A stretch of DNA of 64,000 nucleotides from an uncultured Bermanella sp. (GTDB lineage: Bacteria; Pseudomonadota; Gammaproteobacteria; Pseudomonadales; Oceanobacteraceae), in the NCBI GenBank assembly GCA_913058575.1, contig CAJXRF010000016.1, positions 1 through 64,000 of the forward strand. Direction: 5' to 3'. Shown here piece by piece: positions 3,971 through 26,402 of this stretch (positions are counted from its first letter, which is position 1; every line of letters begins with the position of its first letter). Position numbers and translations under genes: made by a program. The notes below the pieces were generated by a model that worked only from the letters and a program-made list of their open reading frames with translations, had not been told where the DNA came from and did not search any database.

Positions 3971-6301
3971 CTAAAAGCCAACTGTATCGAAAATAAATGG
4001 ATACGAAACAAACACTGCATCACCACCACTTGGCTGTGGGAATTTCCAGGTTTTAATCGCCGACTTAATACAAGAATGAATTTCATCAGACTTAACGGTT
4101 GAAGACTTAATGTTCACAGCCCCTACTTTTCCGCTGGCTAACACTTTCCATTCAAATACCGCTTTACCCGCTAAGCTAGGCGTGTTCATCAAAGAAGTTT
4201 CGTAGCAATAAGTCACATCATCCATGTTGGCATCAATCACACGTTTCACTTGATCACGACTCAAGCCGCCTTTAATTTTCACACGCTTCGACATACTGGC
4301 CGTTACACGTCCTGCCACAGCTTGGGTACCGGTACCGCCACGAGAAAGTGCTGCTACTGAACCCTTGCCGCCGACTCCGCCACTGCGTAATACATCAGCT
4401 GCACCCTTACTGGTAATAAGCTCTCCTGTTGGCAAGGTCATACGTGAACTGCCCACTTTGGCTTTTAAACCAGACACTTTTAATTTGGCTGAACTTGAGC
4501 TTGAAGAAACCGCATCCAAACTGGTGACATTAGCCAAACTTCTTTTAGGTTTAGTTTTACCACTTGTGGTACCCAAAGACGCCAATAGCCCAGACTTTTT
4601 CACATCACGTTTCTTGATATTACCCTTAGCACCACCACCCGCTTTAGGCTTGGCCTTGGGTTTTGGTTTTTCCTTAGCTTTAGTCTTAGGCTTGGCCTTT
4701 GGTTTAGGCTTAGGTTTCGCTTTGGCCTTAGGCTTTGGCTTTGGTTTTGGCTTCGCTTTTGGCTTAGGTTTTGGTTTTTCTACCTTAGGCTTTGGCTTAG
4801 GTTTTTCAATTTTTGGCAGTTCTTTTGGCAGCTCCATTTTTACAAAATCGGGCTCTTTCTCTTTAGGTTCGACGGCCGTGAAATTAATAACAATAGCCGC
4901 AATGGCCAGTACCAATAAGTGAAAACCAGTGGAGCCGGCGATGCTTTTGTAAATGGTTTTGTAATCTTTTACTTCTTCTTTTACACGAGGCACTTTAATG
5001 GCAAAGCTGGCACGCACGATATAAGTGTCATGACCATTGCGCATGCAAACATCTGAGTCACTGGGTATTTCAGCCTGAACAGAGTTACCCGAAAAGACGC
5101 CCGCACCTTGATTGGTTAGTTCATTAACCGACAGCTTCCCGCCAGGTGCTCGATTTCGAACTTCCCCTTTGAACTTATCGCTATTAAAAACATACAGGCA
5201 CTTATCGTTGCCTTTATGCTTAGCCAGCGTAACGCTTTTGCCAGCTTGTTTAATTTGGTAGCTCTGACCTTTTTCAAGATAAGTAACATCAATTACTTCC
5301 CCTTGATTAAGGTGCAGCACTTCAATCACTCGATTGCTGGCTTCAGTGGGCCATGCTTTTTGACTGTGCTGAGTAAAGTGATCTTTTAATTCAAAAAGCT
5401 GTTCGTTATCAACTTCGTCGTCTTCGTCATCCTCATCATCTTCCACACCATCAAATGCTGGCATACCTTGATTAGGTAAGTTTTGAGGGGGGTTCTGGGT
5501 TACCTTATTGGCAGGCTCTGCTTTATTAGGCAGTTTAATTAGCCCAGTCAGTTGCTTAAGACTATTTAATATCCGCTGAATTAGCGTTATCTCTTCAGCA
5601 GGCATTTGCTCATCTTGACCATGAGCATCGGTTAAATCGATGGGCTGACGAGCTTTTTGCGCAACTGGTTTCTGAGCTGCAGGCTGATTAGCCCTTGCAG
5701 TATTAAGTGCTGTGCTCAGGGCTTTATTTGTTCTTTCTTGTGTCGTTTTTTGAGCGGCCTTGGCAGGTGTAATCTTATTCTTAGTAACATCAGCCGAAGG
5801 GGCTTGACCTGCTAGAGTGTGATTAGCTATTTTTTCTTGTTGTTTCTGAGGCTCTCTAAGAGCAACACCATTACCCTTAACTTGTGCTGCACGTACTGAC
5901 TTAACCGCTTTACCACCTAGCGACAATGGGGTGCCAGATTGATCAGACCTACCTTTTAAACTGATAATTTTGTCTTGCTGCTCTACCTTATTATGCAAAA
6001 GGTAAATTAGTTTAGCCTTACCCACTTCAGACATTGACTGAGGATTTAGCTCAGTACGAATTAGACTGACTAATTCATTGAAATCAGAGGTAGTACGGTC
6101 AATGGCTTGATTATCTTTAATATGAACACTGCTTGTGTTTTTTTCATATCGATTAGACAGTATTTCAATCAAACGGGTTTTGGCTTCAGGCTTTAACTTA
6201 GCCACGTCGACCTTTTGGTTTTTCAGGTTGATCGTTTGCCCTTGGGGTTTGGCAGCGCCGGATCCTACCGGTGGTTTTTTTACCGTATTATTTGCTTGCA
6301 T
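3971..6301 (-). CDS. AgmX/PglI-type TonB-like trans-envelope protein
   Basis: This 776-residue protein appears to span the inner membrane once. Residues 1-285 are basic and low-complexity. Residues 285-298 are almost all Asp/Glu. Residues about 320-435 form a compact beta-rich domain that could be a degenerate FHA-like fold. One transmembrane segment lies near 457-475. A long Pro-Lys spacer (about 498-553) follows, as in TonB, and the C-terminal domain (about 677-775) contains Cys699 and Cys744. This layout matches the AgmX/PglI C-terminal-domain family (GltJ/GltG of Myxococcus). Energy would come from the ExbB/ExbD proteins encoded upstream. Start: ATG at 6301. The FHA suggestion is uncertain; the family call is firmer. 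Confidence 0.85.
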   Translation of the reverse strand: MQANNTVKKPPVGSGAAKPQGQTINLKNQKVDVAKLKPEAKTRLIEILSNRYEKNTSSVHIKDNQAIDRTTSDFNELVSLIRTELNPQSMSEVGKAKLIYLLHNKVEQQDKIISLKGRSDQSGTPLSLGGKAVKSVRAAQVKGNGVALREPQKQQEKIANHTLAGQAPSADVTKNKITPAKAAQKTTQERTNKALSTALNTARANQPAAQKPVAQKARQPIDLTDAHGQDEQMPAEEITLIQRILNSLKQLTGLIKLPNKAEPANKVTQNPPQNLPNQGMPAFDGVEDDEDDEDDEVDNEQLFELKDHFTQHSQKAWPTEASNRVIEVLHLNQGEVIDVTYLEKGQSYQIKQAGKSVTLAKHKGNDKCLYVFNSDKFKGEVRNRAPGGKLSVNELTNQGAGVFSGNSVQAEIPSDSDVCMRNGHDTYIVRASFAIKVPRVKEEVKDYKTIYKSIAGSTGFHLLVLAIAAIVINFTAVEPKEKEPDFVKMELPKELPKIEKPKPKPKVEKPKPKPKAKPKPKPKPKAKAKPKPKPKAKPKTKAKEKPKPKAKPKAGGGAKGNIKKRDVKKSGLLASLGTTSGKTKPKRSLANVTSLDAVSSSSSSAKLKVSGLKAKVGSSRMTLPTGELITSKGAADVLRSGGVGGKGSVAALSRGGTGTQAVAGRVTASMSKRVKIKGGLSRDQVKRVIDANMDDVTYCYETSLMNTPSLAGKAVFEWKVLASGKVGAVNIKSSTVKSDEIHSCIKSAIKTWKFPQPSGGDAVFVSYPFIFDTVGF

Positions 6302-20848: not shown

Positions 20849-20925
20849 GGCTACATAGCTCAGTTGGTTAGAGCACATCACTCATAATGATGGGGTCCCT
20901 AGTTCGAATCTAGGTGTAGCCACCA
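20849..20925 (+). tRNA. tRNA-Met (CAT), elongator
   Basis: The 77-base gene folds as a full cloverleaf with acceptor stem GGCTACA/TGTAGCC, anticodon stem CATCA/TGATG and loop CTCATAA (anticodon CAT), T-arm CCTAG-TTCGAAT-CTAGG, and an encoded CCA. It is very close to E. coli elongator tRNA-Met. Its 3' half is repeated at 23426 and 26316, so this tRNA is the integration target of the two islands that follow. Confidence 0.96.
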
Positions 20926-20938
20926 AGAATTACTAAAG

Positions 20939-20972
20939 AAATCAGTCACTTAGCGGTGACTGATTTTTTTTT
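20939..20972 (+). terminator. Rho-independent terminator after tRNA-Met
   Basis: AATCAGTCAC pairs with GTGACTGATT around TTAGCG, followed by a run of T. A near copy follows the second tRNA 3'-end repeat (23491), so this hairpin travels with the attachment site. Confidence 0.9.
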
Positions 20973-20990
20973 GCCTTTCAGAAATATTTT

Positions 20991-21012
20991 ATTGTGGACA
21001 CATTGTGGACAC
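20991..21012 (+). repeat. tandem 11-base direct repeat at island 1 left end
   Basis: ATTGTGGACAC occurs twice without a gap (20991-21001 and 21002-21012), 65 bases after the tRNA. The position suits an arm-type recombinase binding site. No copy is obvious at island 2. Confidence 0.5.
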
Positions 21013-21035
21013 GTTTTATAACCCAAAGACCTATC

Positions 21036-21157
21036 AATACCCCCTCTAAGATCCAGACTGTATAAAAAACACCCAGAAACCCTATCATCTAATTCTTCGA
21101 TATAATCTAAATCTTAATAGCTCAATGACATAAAGATAAGTAATATATATAACTATT
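21036..21157 (+). repeat. conserved island left end, copy 1
   Basis: This block matches 23584-23707 in island 2 with few differences. Shared parts are CCCCCTCT, ACTGTATAAAAAACACCCA, CCCTATCATCTAATTCTTCG, ATCTTAATAGCT and TATATATAACTA. It contains CTAATTCTTCGAT (21089-21101), which reappears with one change at the right end (23356). The block may combine recombinase-arm sites with a promoter. Confidence 0.75.
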
Positions 21158-21369
21158 AAGAATTTAGAGGGGGTTCTGCAGAAGCTTATTTAGAGCCCAT
21201 TGATAATCTGAGAATGGTCAAGCCCTGCATCTTAATGCAGCATGATACAGACTGAAAAAAGAAGACGGAAACCTTCATGGCATTAGAAAAGCTCAACTCG
21301 CCAAAAACTTCGCAGACTACGATCAAATAACAACTCTAATAATTTAACCAATGTGTAGCAAGGCTGGCT

Positions 21370-22179
21370 ATGTTTAGCGATGTAAAACAATATTTAGAAA
21401 AGTTAGACTACTTGAAAGGGGCATCTGGCTCATGCATTAAGTCAGCAATGTACCATGTAGAAAAAGCCGAAATTTTGTCTACAGTCGACCCTGAGATGTC
21501 AATATTCAGGCTAATCACGGCAGAAGAAGAAGCAGCAACTTCAATTTTATTGATGCTAAAAGAGCATGGCTACCATCAATCAAAGACTCTAAATAAAAAT
21601 AACCATCTCCACAAACAGTGCTTATACCCTTTCATAAGCTCAATCTCCGAAATGCTAAGTAAAGACCTAAGCAAACTATCAAGTCATCCACCCGTATTAA
21701 AGTGGGTAGATATTGATGGATCGGACGCTATTGAACTAAGCTTTAGAATCATGCTCGAAGAGCAGAAATTGATACTCAAAATGGAACCACCTTTAAATTT
21801 CGAGGTTTCACTAAATGAAGAACTTCACGATTTCAGGAGAGAATTAGTCGAATTCCTTGAAAGAAAAGGGTTTAGCAATACAGTTAAACATTTAAAAGAT
21901 GTTGCTAATTTACGCAATAAACTACTTTATTCTGATGGCAATAAAATACCCAACACTTTAGCTGACATTGAAAATGGCAATTATAATAAACTAGCCAGGT
22001 ACCAATTACAGAAAATTAACGTCCTGATTTCTATATACTTTATGACGGCGCCATATAAGAAAATGGGAAAAGCAATATTCCTTGAACAGGCTTTGTTTAG
22101 CTATTTGGAATTACTACAACACGTAAAGGGAGTTAGGCATAACAAATCAAGCCATCCCAAGTACGAGCCCAATTTATAA
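21370..22179 (+). CDS. island 1 protein, possibly HEPN/AbiV-like
   Basis: This 269-residue, almost wholly helical protein has no signal peptide or membrane segment. Parts recall HEPN-type abortive-infection proteins: FRLITAEEEAATSILLMLKE near the N-terminus and a later LKDVANLRNKLLYSDG helix. The usual Rx4-6H motif is not clearly present in that helix; RHNKSSH near the C-terminus has the spacing but sits in a flexible tail. It precedes a second HEPN-like gene by 20 bases. A defence role is inferred from context and weak similarity; treat it as hypothetical. Confidence 0.7.
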   Translation: MFSDVKQYLEKLDYLKGASGSCIKSAMYHVEKAEILSTVDPEMSIFRLITAEEEAATSILLMLKEHGYHQSKTLNKNNHLHKQCLYPFISSISEMLSKDLSKLSSHPPVLKWVDIDGSDAIELSFRIMLEEQKLILKMEPPLNFEVSLNEELHDFRRELVEFLERKGFSNTVKHLKDVANLRNKLLYSDGNKIPNTLADIENGNYNKLARYQLQKINVLISIYFMTAPYKKMGKAIFLEQALFSYLELLQHVKGVRHNKSSHPKYEPNL

Positions 22180-22199
22180 TGGCAGGCCTTATTTAACAA

Positions 22200-22877
22200 A
22201 TGGATACTAAACACTGGATTCAACACATAGGAAGAGAAATAGAGGAGCCTCTTCGCTATTTTTATTCACAACAAGCATATGGAGACTGCTTGCGTGGACC
22301 TAATGGAACAGAATTAGCTTATAAGAATATTCATTTTTGGAAATTATTTTCTACTTCTGTCCAAAGGTCTTTGTTCATAGGATTAGGGCGACTATTTGAC
22401 GGAGTATCAGGGGCAAGATCATTCCCAAAATTTCAAGGACACTGCATGCAGAATATGAATGCCTTTAGTAAGAGCGCTTTGGCGGAACGAAGGGTATTGG
22501 AAAATGGAGGGGTTCGACCTGAATATCTTGATAACTATCTTAGCGGGTGCAGTGAAATATCCAAAGAGGATATTGGAAAACTATTCAGCCCTATATCAAG
22601 CATCAATGGCCGAGCAAGAGACATTTATCAAAGAATAAGAAGTAAAACAATTGCCCATGCAATATCAACTGAAGAGAATGAATACTCCGAGCTCTTTATC
22701 TCTGCCAACAATGACGAAATAGAGAAAATTCTTCTTACGCTTTGGGGCGTGTATCGCAACATATGGGAATTGTATTACAATGGTAACTTGCCTAATAAGG
22801 GTTACTTAACTTACGAATATAAATTTAAAAACGAATGCTATGAAAGTACGAAAAAAGCATTTTATAACATTCAATAA
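22200..22877 (+). CDS. HEPN AbiU2-like protein
   Basis: This 225-residue helical protein has the AbiU2-type features of a helix with SLFIGLGRLFDG (about 57-68) and a later helix RIRSKTIAHA with Arg147-x5-His153, matching the Rx4-6H active site of HEPN ribonucleases. AbiU2-like HEPN proteins occur in abortive-infection and toxin-antitoxin contexts. It lies 20 bases after the other helical gene, so the pair may act together (toxin-antidote or heteromeric nuclease). The family call rests on motif recognition only. Confidence 0.7.
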   Translation: MDTKHWIQHIGREIEEPLRYFYSQQAYGDCLRGPNGTELAYKNIHFWKLFSTSVQRSLFIGLGRLFDGVSGARSFPKFQGHCMQNMNAFSKSALAERRVLENGGVRPEYLDNYLSGCSEISKEDIGKLFSPISSINGRARDIYQRIRSKTIAHAISTEENEYSELFISANNDEIEKILLTLWGVYRNIWELYYNGNLPNKGYLTYEYKFKNECYESTKKAFYNIQ

Positions 22878-22964
22878 ACGGCAATAAATATTGAACCAAC
22901 TTTCACGCTAACACCTTCATTAGCTACATACTTGGAGCTTTAAAAAAGAATTGGAAGGCTTGAC

Positions 22965-23165
22965 TGTTCCCTTTTACGTTGGGGTAATTACGTGAGAGTT
23001 AATACTCTTAGCAGGCAAGTCAACTCCCTACTAGGTTAGGCCAACTTAGTAGTCGACAGCAAAGGGAATTAGGCTGTTGGACATATGGGTCGCGCCCATT
23101 CATAGCGTAGCCAACAATTTAATACCCGTAACTGTCACCTAGTTAACCTTGCGGTTGCTAGAGGC
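22965..23165 (+). ncRNA. candidate structured RNA in island 1
   Basis: Several hairpins follow one another without an ORF. CTACTAGGTT pairs with AACTTAGTAG (23028-23052). TGTTGG pairs with CCAACA (23075-23116) and encloses ATGGG/CCCAT. CTAG-AACC pairs with GGTT-CTAG around TTGC (23139-23161). TTGACT/AGTCAA and GAGAGT/ACTCTT arms lie before these. The density of stems is well above that of neighbouring spacers. It could be a regulatory RNA or leader for the small ORF at 23198. I do not recognise the family. Confidence 0.35.
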
Positions 23166-23197
23166 CTCAGCAGTCGCTCAACTATCGGTAACACACC

Positions 23198-23290
23198 ATG
23201 ATTGAGTTAAAGCTGAAAGTTAAGCTATCCGTTCCGCAGATTATTGCCCTCATAGGTATTGGTCTAGAAGTTGTGGATACCTTGCTTTAA
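23198..23290 (+). CDS. 30-residue hydrophobic peptide
   Basis: The frame encodes a charged N-terminus (MIELKLKVKL) followed by a hydrophobic helix (SVPQIIALIGIGLEVVDTLL). It is preceded by the structured segment and followed within 5 bases by a UUCG-capped hairpin. This arrangement resembles type I toxin peptides or small membrane effectors. No strong ribosome-binding site is seen, so expression is uncertain. Confidence 0.35.
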   Translation: MIELKLKVKLSVPQIIALIGIGLEVVDTLL

Positions 23291-23294
23291 AAAC

Positions 23295-23318
23295 GTGGGG
23301 CAGCTTCGGCTGCTCCAC
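23295..23318 (+). terminator. UUCG-capped hairpin after the small ORF
   Basis: GTGGGGCAGC pairs with GCTGCTCCAC (one G-T pair) around TTCG, the most stable tetraloop type. The T tract after it is weak, so termination is probable but not certain. Confidence 0.55.
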
Positions 23319-23351
23319 ACCTAATTTAAGAAGCAGTATTTTAAAAAACAA

Positions 23352-23381
23352 CCAACTAATTTTTCGATTTATATTGATTTA
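23352..23381 (+). repeat. conserved island right end, copy 1
   Basis: These 30 bases match 26231-26260 at 29 positions (CCAACTAATTTTTCGAT, then TTAT(A/C)TTGATTTA). The block lies about 45 bases before the tRNA 3'-end repeat in both islands, and its CTAATTTTTCGAT resembles the left-end CTAATTCTTCGAT. Confidence 0.8.
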
Positions 23382-23425
23382 CTATAAATATTACACCATA
23401 ATAACTAAATTTGGCGCAATCTGTC

Positions 23426-23476
23426 CACATCGCTCATAATGATGGGGTCCCTAGTTCGAATCTTGGTGTAGCCACC
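23426..23476 (+). repeat. tRNA-Met 3'-end repeat (attachment site between islands)
   Basis: These 51 bases repeat the tRNA-Met from its anticodon stem to the CCA with two substitutions, one of which breaks a T-stem pair (CTTGG for CTAGG). The 5' half of the tRNA is absent, so this is not a functional tRNA. It marks the boundary of islands 1 and 2. Confidence 0.92.
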
Positions 23477-23490
23477 ATAAATACCTTAAA

Positions 23491-23522
23491 AATCAGTAGC
23501 TTAGCGGTTACTGATTTTTTTT
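23491..23522 (+). terminator. Rho-independent terminator after the second att repeat
   Basis: AATCAGTAGC pairs with GTTACTGATT around TTAGCG, followed by T8. It is a near copy of the hairpin after the intact tRNA. Confidence 0.85.
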
Positions 23523-23583
23523 GGCTTTAAGAAAAACTTTCGTATTACCGAAATATTACCGGCGATATTTCTATAAAGAATTA

Positions 23584-23707
23584 AAACCCCCTCTTAAATT
23601 TCCGAACTGTATAAAAAACACCCAAAAAACCCTATCATCTAATTCTTCGATAGAACCTTAATCTTAATAGCTTGAGGGTATATTGATTGCTAGTATATAT
23701 AACTAGC
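23584..23707 (+). repeat. conserved island left end, copy 2
   Basis: Homologous to 21036-21157. It includes CTAATTCTTCGAT (23639-23651) and ends in the perfect palindrome CTAGT-ATATATA-ACTAG, which could be an operator or promoter element. Confidence 0.75.
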
Positions 23708-23847
23708 AGGTCTTTATGATGAAAGCCGCTAAGACCTGCATATAATCCTGCTTAGAGAGGCTTTCCGATCCATGAAGTGAAGACCCTGTGCACAAGTACT
23801 AGCCAATCAATCAGCTGTAAATTCCAAAACCAGATTGGAGTCACCTA

Positions 23848-24756
23848 ATGACAGATCCTGCGACAGATAATATCCCCGATTGGAAGAAGCTTGAGCACTT
23901 AGTAGTGATGATTCAGAAGCAATTGTCGCCTGATGCGATTGTTCAGCACAATGTAATGCTAGATGGATTTGAAAGTGAAACTAAAAGACAAATAGATGTA
24001 TTAGTTGAACAAAACATAGGCCAATACACGATGCGAATCGTTATCGACTGTAAAGACTATTCTAAGCCGGTGGATGTAAAAGGCGTCGAGGAGTTTCAGG
24101 GATTACTTCAAGATGTTAGGGCTCATAAAGGAGCTTTAGTGTGTCCTTCAGGTTTCACTAAAGCTGCCTTAAAACGAGCCAAAAAACTTCAAGTTGATTT
24201 ATACCGCCCAGTCTCAACAGAAAAGCACAAGTGGCAAACTAAAATAACAGCTCCTATCTTATGCGACTTTAGAAGCTGCTATATGAGTTTCGGCATTAGC
24301 TCTATCGCTCCTAAGCCACTCAAATTATCTCCAGACTTTTATAATCTTACCGTTAGTGACAAGGCTGGCAATGATTTAGGAAGTGCCTTACAAACAGCCC
24401 AAGCCAAATGAAATGAAGGCCTATTATCAAGTGAGCCAGGAGAACATGACCGAGTAGCAGTTTTTGGCGATACTATCGTTCTCATTGATAATGGATACGA
24501 AGACACCATCGAAGTGAAACTAACAGTAGCCTTAATTGTAAAGCAAGATTTATATCTAGGTCACCTACCTATAGAAGATGTAAACGGCCTAAAGGATGAA
24601 CATTCCGGTGCAGTAGTTACTAACGCGTTCACCCTCGGGGGGTTAATCCCCCTAGAGGTTGAAAAAAACTGGACTAAAGTAGCCGATATTAATTCTTTAG
24701 AGTTTGAACCTATTTTTAAGGTTACTGGTTATTACTGTTACGGCGCATCAAATTAA
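23848..24756 (+). pseudogene. Mrr-like restriction endonuclease interrupted by an in-frame TGA
   Basis: GGAGTCACCTA precedes the ATG. The first 187 residues hold a PD-(D/E)xK nuclease core of the Mrr/type IV group: Glu16 in an N-terminal helix, Asp50 (RQIDVLVE), then Asp67-x-Lys69 (VIDCKDY) and VEEFQGLLQDV. A TGA at 24409-24411 ends this frame. The same frame then continues without another stop to 24756, adding about 115 residues (for example DRVAVFGDTIVLIDNGYEDT and SLEFEPIFKVTGYYCYG). One nonsense change therefore appears to split a gene of about 302 codons. The N-terminal part could still make a shortened nuclease. Confidence 0.7.
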
Positions 24757-24783
24757 TAACAAGGAAAGCTAAAATTGAACATC

Positions 24784-25977
24784 CTACTTATTCGGAATAG
24801 TAATCTGACCATATACATTCTCACCCGCACATATAAGCTCTTCACTTTCGATAACACATCCATGATGGTGATCAAAGCTAAGCTGAGACGGGAATTTGAC
24901 TATATTTTGAAGATCAGGCACACCATCTAAATTCCTACCCCAGCACGTCAAGCCAAGGTCTGTCACAGCGCACCCGTTACTATAATTCACTGCAAGGTTT
25001 GATGATGTGTTCAATTCTAACTCGCCTGTGATTTCACTAGAAGTTTTATCGGTTCGATCCCAACAAGTGACTAGACCATTAGTTATAGCACAACCGCCCG
25101 TTTGTCCAATGTCAATAATATCAACTTCCAGTAGAGTCTCAGGTAAAGTGTAAGCTCCTGAATTATAACCCCAACACAGAGGTTTTTTCCCATCAATCAC
25201 ACAAGCATTACTGCCTTTTACAACCAAACCATGAGGGTCTTCTAAGTTTATAGGGGGGGTTGTAAGGTTGCTAAACTTCTCATTACCAAAACATTGCAAA
25301 CCGCTATCGTCAATTACACAACTAGAAAAAAATCCTGAGCTTAACTCCCGAACATTTACTAAATTTTCAGGAGGTTCAACTTTAGTAAAATCTGTATTCT
25401 CTTCCCCACCCCAGCAAACTACACCTGAGTCATCTTGAACGCATGTATGAGTACCTCCAGATGAAATTTTTCTTGGGTTCATCAAGTTATTAGGGACATC
25501 CGTTTGGCCATATATATTGTCGCCCCAACACTCCACTTTATTTTCAACTATTGCACAAGTATGGTATGCCCCTGTACTAACTTCAGATACTCCTTTCAAC
25601 CCTCGATAAAAAGTATGGCACTCTACACGTAAATGTTTTATCTCTTCACTTTCAATTAAACCATTACCATATTTAACTTTGCACCACTGCGACTCAGGTT
25701 GTTTTACAATCAATACTGAATATGTTTCACCACTTTCCAAACTACCTTCAAATTTAAAATCTTTTGGTGATATTTTAGATATAGATATAAATTCTTCATT
25801 ATTTAATGATATTTCTATTTCACCATCCAGATCATATACTGCTCCTGAAATATCAAATTTTTCTTGCTCTTCTATTCTCGATTTATCAACATTCTTATTC
25901 GAAGCATCAGTTAAAACACAGCCCGATAAAGTAAAACCAAATAAAATTGTACATATAAATAGCGCAACGCACTTCAC
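24784..25977 (-). CDS. RCC1-repeat lipoprotein carried by island 2
   Basis: This 397-residue protein has a lipoprotein signal (GFTLSGC, Cys20). It is followed by an N-terminal beta domain to about residue 120, then about seven RCC1-like blades. Each blade has a paired-Cys pattern such as HTCAIVENKVECWGDNIYGQ or NGCAVTDLGLTCWGRN, so the propeller is probably disulfide-stabilised outside the cytoplasm. Bacterial RCC1-type lipoproteins are surface or periplasmic; their partners are mostly unknown. It converges on the nuclease gene. Confidence 0.82.
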   Translation of the reverse strand: MKCVALFICTILFGFTLSGCVLTDASNKNVDKSRIEEQEKFDISGAVYDLDGEIEISLNNEEFISISKISPKDFKFEGSLESGETYSVLIVKQPESQWCKVKYGNGLIESEEIKHLRVECHTFYRGLKGVSEVSTGAYHTCAIVENKVECWGDNIYGQTDVPNNLMNPRKISSGGTHTCVQDDSGVVCWGGEENTDFTKVEPPENLVNVRELSSGFFSSCVIDDSGLQCFGNEKFSNLTTPPINLEDPHGLVVKGSNACVIDGKKPLCWGYNSGAYTLPETLLEVDIIDIGQTGGCAITNGLVTCWDRTDKTSSEITGELELNTSSNLAVNYSNGCAVTDLGLTCWGRNLDGVPDLQNIVKFPSQLSFDHHHGCVIESEELICAGENVYGQITIPNK

Positions 25978-26230
25978 TGTTAATATTCCTTATAAATAAA
26001 AATAAGTTGTAAACTAGATGGCTTCACTAAGCAGCTCTCATTTAGAGATTAACACAATGAAATAATTAGTAAGTTAAGATAGCCCATCTAAAGTCGGCTC
26101 ATGGTTTTGGATTGTAACATTTATGAGCGGTGTATATTAATAATTGATCATATTTTGAACAAAAAATCAAAAAAAGCATGCTACCAAGTTGAGTGAGAGT
26201 ATTTCTTAGAAGCAATACTAAGGAGTTCTT
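25978..26230. other. spacer at the right of island 2
   Basis: AT-rich spacer upstream of the minus-strand RCC1 gene, whose promoter should lie here. I see no ORF or hairpin of note. Confidence 0.5.
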
Positions 26231-26260
26231 CCAACTAATTTTTCGATTTATCTTGATTTA
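26231..26260 (+). repeat. conserved island right end, copy 2
   Basis: Matches 23352-23381 at 29 of 30 positions and contains CTAATTTTTCGAT (26235-26247). Confidence 0.8.
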
Positions 26261-26315
26261 GTCTAAAAAACTGATCACACTGGCTTACTACTGTATATTA
26301 ATTAATCACACCTAA

Positions 26316-26359
26316 TCATAATGATGGGGTCCCTAGTTCGAATCTTGGTGTAGCCACCA
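26316..26359 (+). repeat. tRNA-Met 3'-end repeat (distal attachment site)
   Basis: These 44 bases repeat the tRNA-Met 3' half from the anticodon loop to CCA, with the same CTTGG substitution as the middle copy. It marks the right boundary of the island array. Confidence 0.92.
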
Positions 26360-26365
26360 AATTTT

Positions 26366-26402
26366 AAAATCCCGATTAGCGCACGTTAATCGGGATTTTT
26401 TG
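26366..26402 (+). terminator. Rho-independent terminator after the distal att repeat
   Basis: ATCCCGATTA pairs with TAATCGGGAT around GCGCACG, then T6. Its sequence differs from the hairpins after the other two copies. It may be the original chromosomal tRNA terminator displaced by integration. Confidence 0.88.

Follow-up and report, generated by a model that had tools for sequence, protein, structure and literature searches.

Behind a tRNA-Met gene on contig CAJXRF010000016.1 of an uncultured Bermanella sp. (assembly GCA_913058575.1), two short segments lie in tandem between positions 20849 and 26359 of the 64,000 nucleotides analysed here (positions 1 to 64,000, termed the window). We propose with good confidence that these segments are two related, integrase-less islands of the cis-mobilizable element (CIME) type, which were inserted successively into the tRNA-Met gene by site-specific recombination and whose recombinase is absent. 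As judged from sequence comparison, both segments are insertions relative to the related genome G001, have ends that resemble attachment (att) sites, and carry no recombinase on board.

An occupied and an empty tRNA-Met locus

The sole tRNA that ARAGORN finds in the window is the target gene, tRNA-Met(CAT) (Table 1). BLAST of this gene on the window at E 0.01 returns nothing beyond two 3'-half repeats, which comprise gene positions 26-77 (96.2%) and 34-77 (97.7%), respectively, and start at 23426 and 26316, as the first-pass annotation had read them. Their spacing, start to start, is 2552 bp for island 1 and 2882 bp for island 2, in agreement with the segments of 2.5 and 2.9 kb described earlier. 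Both repeats cover tRNA-Met from its anticodon stem-loop to its 3' end, and a hairpin with a T run stands behind each of them as well as behind the intact gene. The segments had been called integrase-less, and Pfam, PADLOC, NCBIfam and PHROGs indeed detect no recombinase in their five main frames; neither island shows any sign of an integrase or of a backbone gene.

In G001, which belongs to the same genus and another species, the corresponding locus contains one tRNA-Met and no islands. The order there is Trx, three hypothetical genes, tRNA-Met, alpha/beta hydrolase and a cyclic nucleotide monophosphate (cNMP)-binding protein, which matches the gene order and orientations of the window read backwards, except that three hypothetical genes stand in place of two. 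Each tRNA pattern is matched once in the whole G001 genome, and the tRNA occurs once in the locus. The tRNA end is 270 bases from the stop of the first hypothetical gene in G001, and the last repeat in the window is 278 bases from the stop of the corresponding gene. This empty site with matching flanks thus indicates that 5,434 bp were inserted here.

A tRNA-Met match was obtained in 17 of 44 family genomes. In G005, the cNMP-binding protein gene, the tRNA and a hypothetical gene follow a G001-like order and islands are not seen, 98-bp repeats being present and some bases unread. No island is seen in G004, where the cNMP-binding protein gene stands close behind an inverted tRNA, or in G008, where other chromosome-like genes follow tRNA-Met. 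Four genomes do not allow a judgement: in G002, 355 bases follow the tRNA, the G003 contig stops within it, and G006 and G007 have no tRNA match.

These loci have features of their own. The G003 contig breaks within tRNA-Met (L125, 8241-8285), as assemblies do at repeats, and its other side was not found. The tRNA-Met of G004 (L031, 7105-7181) is reversed relative to its neighbours, as compared with G001, G005 and the window. Tandem units of 98-99 bp stand behind tRNA-Met in two sister species, G005 (L126, 12738-13090; 3.6 copies) and G004 (L031, 7219-7436; 2.2 copies), each consisting of the last 14 bp of tRNA-Met plus a terminator-like hairpin, and are reminiscent of the E. coli tyrT repeats. 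They also resemble the gene-free microCIMEs of 130-220 bp, as these are portrayed in the cited part of PMC7563491.

Table 1. Features of the tRNA-Met locus and its two islands, in window coordinates
Feature	Position	Strand	Basis or score
tRNA-Met (CAT), target gene	20849..20925	+	ARAGORN; Rfam RF00005 72.5 bits
Island 1 body, 2,552 bp core to core	20926..23433	+	tRNA 3' end to first repeat; absent in G001
Terminator-like hairpin behind present tRNA, probably arrived with island 1	20935..20970	+	z -5.4
Tandem TTGTGGACAC, period 11, island 1, +67/+78 from tRNA end	20992..21012	+	
Conserved left-end block, island 1; CTAATTCTTCGAT at 21089-21101 (+164)	21040..21156	+	
269-aa protein, no known family	21370..22179	+	Pfam, PADLOC, NCBIfam, PHROGs
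225-aa HEPN/AbiU2-family protein	22200..22877	+	HEPN_AbiU2 PF18734 35.1 bits, cut-off 26.8
Right-end block, island 1; CTAATTTTTCGAT at 23356-23368 (-78 from 23434)	23352..23388	+	
First displaced tRNA-Met 3' half, attachment site separating the islands	23426..23477	+	BLAST
Island 2, 2,882 bp core to core	23434..26315	+	between tRNA-Met 3'-half repeats
Terminator-like hairpin, probably arrived with island 2	23488..23519	+	z -3.6
Tandem TATTACCG, period 11, island 2, +66/+77 from repeat's 3' end	23543..23561	+	
Conserved left-end block, island 2; CTAATTCTTCGAT at 23639-23651 (+162)	23589..23706	+	
Mrr_cat-type restriction endonuclease frame	23848..24756	+	PF04471 48.1 bits, cut-off 21
397-aa RCC1-repeat protein, lipoprotein-like signal (by eye)	24784..25977	-	PF13540 44.3 bits, cut-off 22
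Right-end block, island 2; CTAATTTTTCGAT at 26235-26247 (-81 from 26316)	26231..26267	+	
Second displaced tRNA-Met 3' half, probably the host's original end	26316..26359	+	BLAST
Terminator-like hairpin behind last repeat, probably the host's own tRNA terminator	26366..26399	+	z -6.4

Island ends and the missing recombinase

The two islands share both of their ends. On the left, the likeness comprises the terminator hairpin and a conserved block, separated by a poorly alignable stretch, and extends ~230 bp past the tRNA end, to about 21156 in island 1 and 23706 in island 2, stopping at the same point in both (about +231); the blocks themselves are 77-82% alike. On the right, a block of 37 bp is conserved at 92%. 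The first-pass annotation had proposed shared blocks of about 100 and 30 bases, of which the sharing holds and the lengths do not. Each end block contains an exact copy of CTAATTYTTCGAT on the + strand, as had been anticipated (Table 1). At up to one mismatch, the motif has 4 matches in the 64 kb against 0.24 expected, a count reached in 0 of 100 shuffles. Across the genome it shows no enrichment (at up to one mismatch, 37 matches versus 43 for the reversed control; 6 exact matches with a trailing A versus 3 in the control): what is special about it is its position and pairing, not its genome-wide frequency.

By analogy of its distances, CTAATTYTTCGAT would be an arm-type site of a tyrosine recombinase. 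In G019 and G035, members of another genus of the same family, tRNA-Met is directly followed by an integrase of 411 aa that has Arm-DNA-bind_3, central and catalytic (Phage_integrase) domains. The ends of these elements carry ATGTAACAC/ATGTCACAC-like copies in the same orientation at +124 and/or +136, and at -70/-71 and -82/-83, the right-hand distances being counted from the repeat start, which lies at gene position 63/64 there and at 34 in the islands. In a control, a 13-mer pair with at least 12 matches appeared in 14 of 100 shuffles of the island 1 ends; a lone motif pair therefore means little, and what counts is the same motif in matching places in two islands. Site-specific insertion is supported by this pairing at arm-like distances together with the empty site in G001. 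A double ATGTAACAT/ATGTAACAC repeat that by eye resembles the G019 motif also stands behind the tRNA-Met of G013 (L129, 18416-18615), with no integrase between it and the next gene, and is perhaps the remnant of an element.

Additionally, a period-11 tandem lies at nearly the same place in both islands, in different letters. Among 2000 shuffles, a period-11 tandem turns up within the first 220 bp 7 times for island 1 and 17 times for island 2, and one of any period from 9 to 13 turns up 40 and 106 times, respectively; among real 220-bp stretches of the window, 21 of 580 have one. The island 1 tandem has a one-mismatch copy at -163 and an inverted 12-of-13 match that overlaps the core, and no copy of the island 2 unit was found near the right end of that island. 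These tandems are perhaps sites for a recombination protein, either arm sites of the integrase or sites of a directionality factor. The attL of KplE1 holds both integrase arm sites and TorI sites, according to the cited part of PMC2951348, so that either of CTAATTYTTCGAT and the tandem could belong to the integrase and the other to the directionality factor.

Within the tRNA, gene positions 32 and 64 are A and A in the intact gene and G and T in the first repeat, and the last repeat starts at gene position 34 and has T at 64. One crossover between positions 32 and 64 would explain these differences if island 1 brought the present 3' half, with point mutation as the other possibility. In their layout, the anticodon loop and its stem correspond to the overlap and core that tyrosine integrases usually have, as set out in the portion of PMC8371274 used here, and the end repeat of Pseudomonas phage 54-4 likewise begins at a tRNA-Met anticodon stem-loop.

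In the mechanism that we propose, an absent tyrosine recombinase would have exchanged strands within the tRNA gene, between positions 32 and 64, with the anticodon loop as the most likely place, joining the host 5' part to the 3' part and terminator of the element and displacing the former 3' part downstream. Island 1 would have supplied the 3' half that tRNA-Met has now. The recombinase would bind CTAATTYTTCGAT at +162/+164 and -78/-81 as arm-type sites, and the period-11 tandems at about +66 would probably be further sites for it or for its directionality factor. At present, the islands may behave as cis-mobilizable elements: an autonomous relative or a phage that uses their site would either provide the recombinase in trans or take them along in cis.

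The first-pass annotation had suggested looking for a related tyrosine recombinase elsewhere in the genome; no helper and no other CTAATTYTTCGAT pair were found there. All 16 Phage_integrase matches were read, and none has a CTAATTYTTCGAT pair beside it. Only two integrase loci have a lone one-mismatch CTAATTYTTCGAT site in them or nearby, at C63:28672 and at C1:45581, the latter within the frame of the integrase. Rejected as helpers for lack of a CTAATTYTTCGAT pair were the integrases of C36, C80, C110 and C42, whose frames carry PF13495 and PF00589 (Pfam) and which we label XerC/IntI-like, and the Arm-DNA-bind_3 integrase of C40, which stands beside a tRNA-Ser with other repeats. Further exact motif matches on C50 and C76, with no tRNA in the stretches read, look like chance. 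The XerC/IntI-like recombinases are scattered over the genome (L033 on C36, L034 on C110, L035 on C80, L036 on C42), and the parts of C36, C110 and C80 that were read contain no cassette-like repeats. On C7, two whole tRNA-Ser(TGA) genes stand 1.5 kb apart (L042, 12256-12346 and 13825-13915); the same type of hairpin accompanies them, two small frames lie in between, and the arrangement may reflect a further small island or a duplication.

Several observations weigh against successive site-specific insertion by one missing enzyme. The clean empty site comes from one genome only, of another species; none of the 16 integrases of the genome itself is accompanied by the motif pair; and the island ends occur in no other genome or record searched beyond chance-like matches. 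The period-11 repeats differ in their letters between the islands, so two recombinases are possible. Moreover, the -70 to -83 distances in G019 and G035 start from another tRNA position, which makes the agreement one by analogy, and the repeats there comprise no more than 14-15 bp of the tRNA tail, implying that this integrase uses another part of the tRNA.

Spread of the ends and competing histories

End blocks at tRNA-Met sites elsewhere, whose absence the first-pass annotation had named as grounds against its reading, were encountered in none of the genomes or the viral, phage and plasmid records searched. The left block is confined to its own genome among 93 relatives and among 390 genomes of the order (E 1e-4). 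Across the 44 family genomes at E<=10, its own two places score 435 and 135 bits; the runner-up among the matches listed reaches 47 bits and corresponds to 38 bp of a hairpin behind a tRNA-Ser in G003. The right arm with the tRNA T-loop is matched in 1 of 390 genomes, and with a looser T-loop in 1 of 369 (the two sets share five genomes), its own genome in both cases. In an 84,980-species collection (contigs of at least 3 kb, own-genome records possibly left out), the right arm with T-loop matches 36 stretches that look chance-like by eye: at least three adjoin intact tRNA genes (L084, L086, L091), most others look coding, and ARAGORN on 11 of the 36 finds one tRNA-Glu, away from the match.

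Viral candidates were likewise rejected, namely one left-end match inside a long phage frame and 8 chance-like matches of a longer left pattern in coding sequence; three other viral patterns gave 0 matches. BLAST of 23340-23760 against phages found 16 records. The tRNA part accounts for 3 of them, from Pseudomonas phages; 11 are Bacillus SPbeta-type phages with a weak match to the right-arm block (85% over 41 bp, E 0.03), and the remaining 2 are weak matches of another kind. The Bacillus matches lie mostly under hypothetical genes where annotated (one record was looked at). Among plasmids, the same query found 22 records, of which 14 match the tRNA part and the other 8, from Priestia at E 0.4, fall within a gene among the 20 matches listed. 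We regard the weak phage and plasmid matches as chance.

Two histories are compatible with a CIME-type pair, and we regard each as a tentative possibility. In the first, two integrase-bearing islands, whether integrative and conjugative elements (ICEs), integrative mobilizable elements (IMEs) or prophages, entered and each later lost its integrase and most of its genes. This is the usual published route to CIMEs, going by the cited part of PMC5704250, and the internal stop of the Mrr frame agrees with decay. Against it, the likeness on the left stops at the same point in both islands and neither retains an integrase or backbone trace; the same ends in both argue against this route because independent deletions would rarely leave identical ends, though two copies are too few to settle decay versus lineage. 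In the second history, to which we give equal weight, a long-lived mini-island lineage lost its integrase before the two copies diverged, and its ends have since moved varied cargo in trans, as a counterpart of miniature inverted-repeat transposable elements (MITEs) for tyrosine-integrase systems. Left blocks that are 77-82% alike and of the same extent, flanking unrelated cargo, speak for such a lineage; the genomes searched yielded no third copy and no helper was seen.

A bolder version appears somewhat less likely still, namely a self-sustaining family of mini-islands that exchanges different conflict genes and is moved wholly in trans by a tyrosine integrase which resides on another replicon or phage and whose arm specificity is for CTAATTYTTCGAT; just as doubtfully, its conserved parts would be only the ~230 bp on the left and the 37-bp right block, ~45 bp before the tRNA-like core. 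The first-pass annotation had suggested a non-autonomous family that uses one attachment site and a borrowed recombinase. Of this, the tRNA-Met insertion, the relatedness of the segments and the lack of an integrase stand, whereas a circulating family and a helper were not found; that a family is moved in trans remains an inference.

That one island was duplicated locally in tandem, through homologous recombination between repeats, and the copies then diverged is improbable: the tandem arrangement and the nearly identical repeat copies would suit it, but the cargos are without similarity in the repeat search although the non-coding ends retain about 80% likeness. Ordinary conserved chromosome, which the first-pass annotation had named as a refuting outcome and in which the tRNA-like repeats would be fortuitous, can practically be dismissed. 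Segment G+C (0.33-0.41 in 1-kb windows) overlaps that of the near flanks, but the segments are absent behind tRNA-Met in the empty G001 site, no island is seen in G004, G005 (part unread) or G008, and the CTAATTYTTCGAT count in the window is far beyond chance.

Searches that start from an integrase miss integrase-less islands. The present pair offers a compact, sequence-defined case, with ends, predicted arm sites, an empty site and two cargos, for testing how a missing recombinase is used, and its end motif offers a handle for finding the helper.

Cargo and known counterparts

The cargos of the two islands show no similarity in the repeat search, in keeping with the earlier remark that they differ. 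In island 1, the 269-aa protein has relatives of about 33% on 8 Vibrio conjugative plasmids, one of which adjoins qnrVC6, dfrA46 and a DUF3265 gene; its structure prediction (mean predicted local distance difference test score 39) was not used. The HEPN_AbiU2 gene starts 20 bp past it. Neither island 1 protein is listed by PADLOC, and no viral relatives of the two were confirmed. In island 2, the Mrr frame has one in-frame stop at 24409-24411, with 187 aa before it and 114 codons open after it (translation), and PADLOC gives weak matches to PDC-S02 and mREase_IV; the RCC1-repeat protein is, to our knowledge, not known as a defence gene. The earlier label of defence or conflict cargo is thus partly supported, as it would fit two of the four genes by sequence: HEPN_AbiU2 and Mrr_cat pass their Pfam cut-offs, whereas the Mrr frame has a stop, the 269-aa protein belongs to no known family and the RCC1-repeat protein is not known to act in defence. 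DUF3265 is a marker of integron cassettes; the cassette origin prompted by it and by the resistance genes on the Vibrio plasmid is not supported, a crude scan for attC R''/R' pairs having found none in the islands or the window. Elsewhere in the window, 4641-4805 holds short repeats with periods of 6 to 42 bp that overlap one another and are rich in GCTTTGG-type units.

Among known classes, an IME or mobile genomic island is rejected because the pair has no site-specific recombinase of its own. Phage satellites, whether phage-inducible chromosomal islands (PICI), P4-like or phage-inducible chromosomal minimalist islands (PICMI), are rejected as well: in the five main frames, Pfam and PHROGs detect neither an integrase nor genes for satellite regulation or packaging. 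A CALIN (an integron cassette array without integrase) lacks support for want of attC sites in the crude scan, and a MITE, which has terminal inverted repeats and is non-coding, is ruled out by the direct end repeats and coding frames.

The P4-type islands of G019 and G035, so labelled by us from their domains, share the target tRNA and a direct repeated motif near both ends, and differ in having their own integrase, a 14-15 bp tail repeat and other motif letters. Phage 54-4, an inovirus with integrase and excisionase that we label Pf-like, has a repeat from the anticodon stem-loop to the tRNA-Met 3' end plus part of the terminator, as here. Its period-11 tandem stands at +49/+60 on the left with one copy at -110 on the right, a plan that island 1 resembles with +67/+78 and the one-mismatch copy at -163; it is unlike the islands in being autonomous, its letters are unrelated, CTAATTYTTCGAT is not present in its record, and island 2 is without the right copy. 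In Dehalococcoides, tandem islands behind one RNA gene, ssrA, are bounded by direct repeats of its 3' end, as here, and 15 lack the integration module; 16 sister islands have a module with a serine recombinase, whereas no recombinase-bearing sister was found here (cited part of PMC3146451).

The closest description is that of CIMEs, which are stripped of integration and transfer genes, keep attL and attR and are often stacked (PMC5704250, in the part cited). As with those of streptococci and others, the pair is integrase-less, flanked by putative attL/attR and in tandem at a gene 3' end (PMC5704250 and PMC7563491, in the parts cited), and the 1.2-13 kb of cargo-bearing S. salivarius CIMEs includes the 2.5 and 2.9 kb seen here (cited part of PMC7563491). 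By sequence, the tRNA 3'-half repeats and the empty site would represent attL/attR of the target gene, and the five main frames hold no recombination or transfer genes. Unlike CIMEs, the pair has no ICE or IME parent in the array, and none of either island was found in the genomes searched. Taken together, the pair is a real, well-delimited tandem of integrase-less islands, of a kind already known and with ends that appear to be new.

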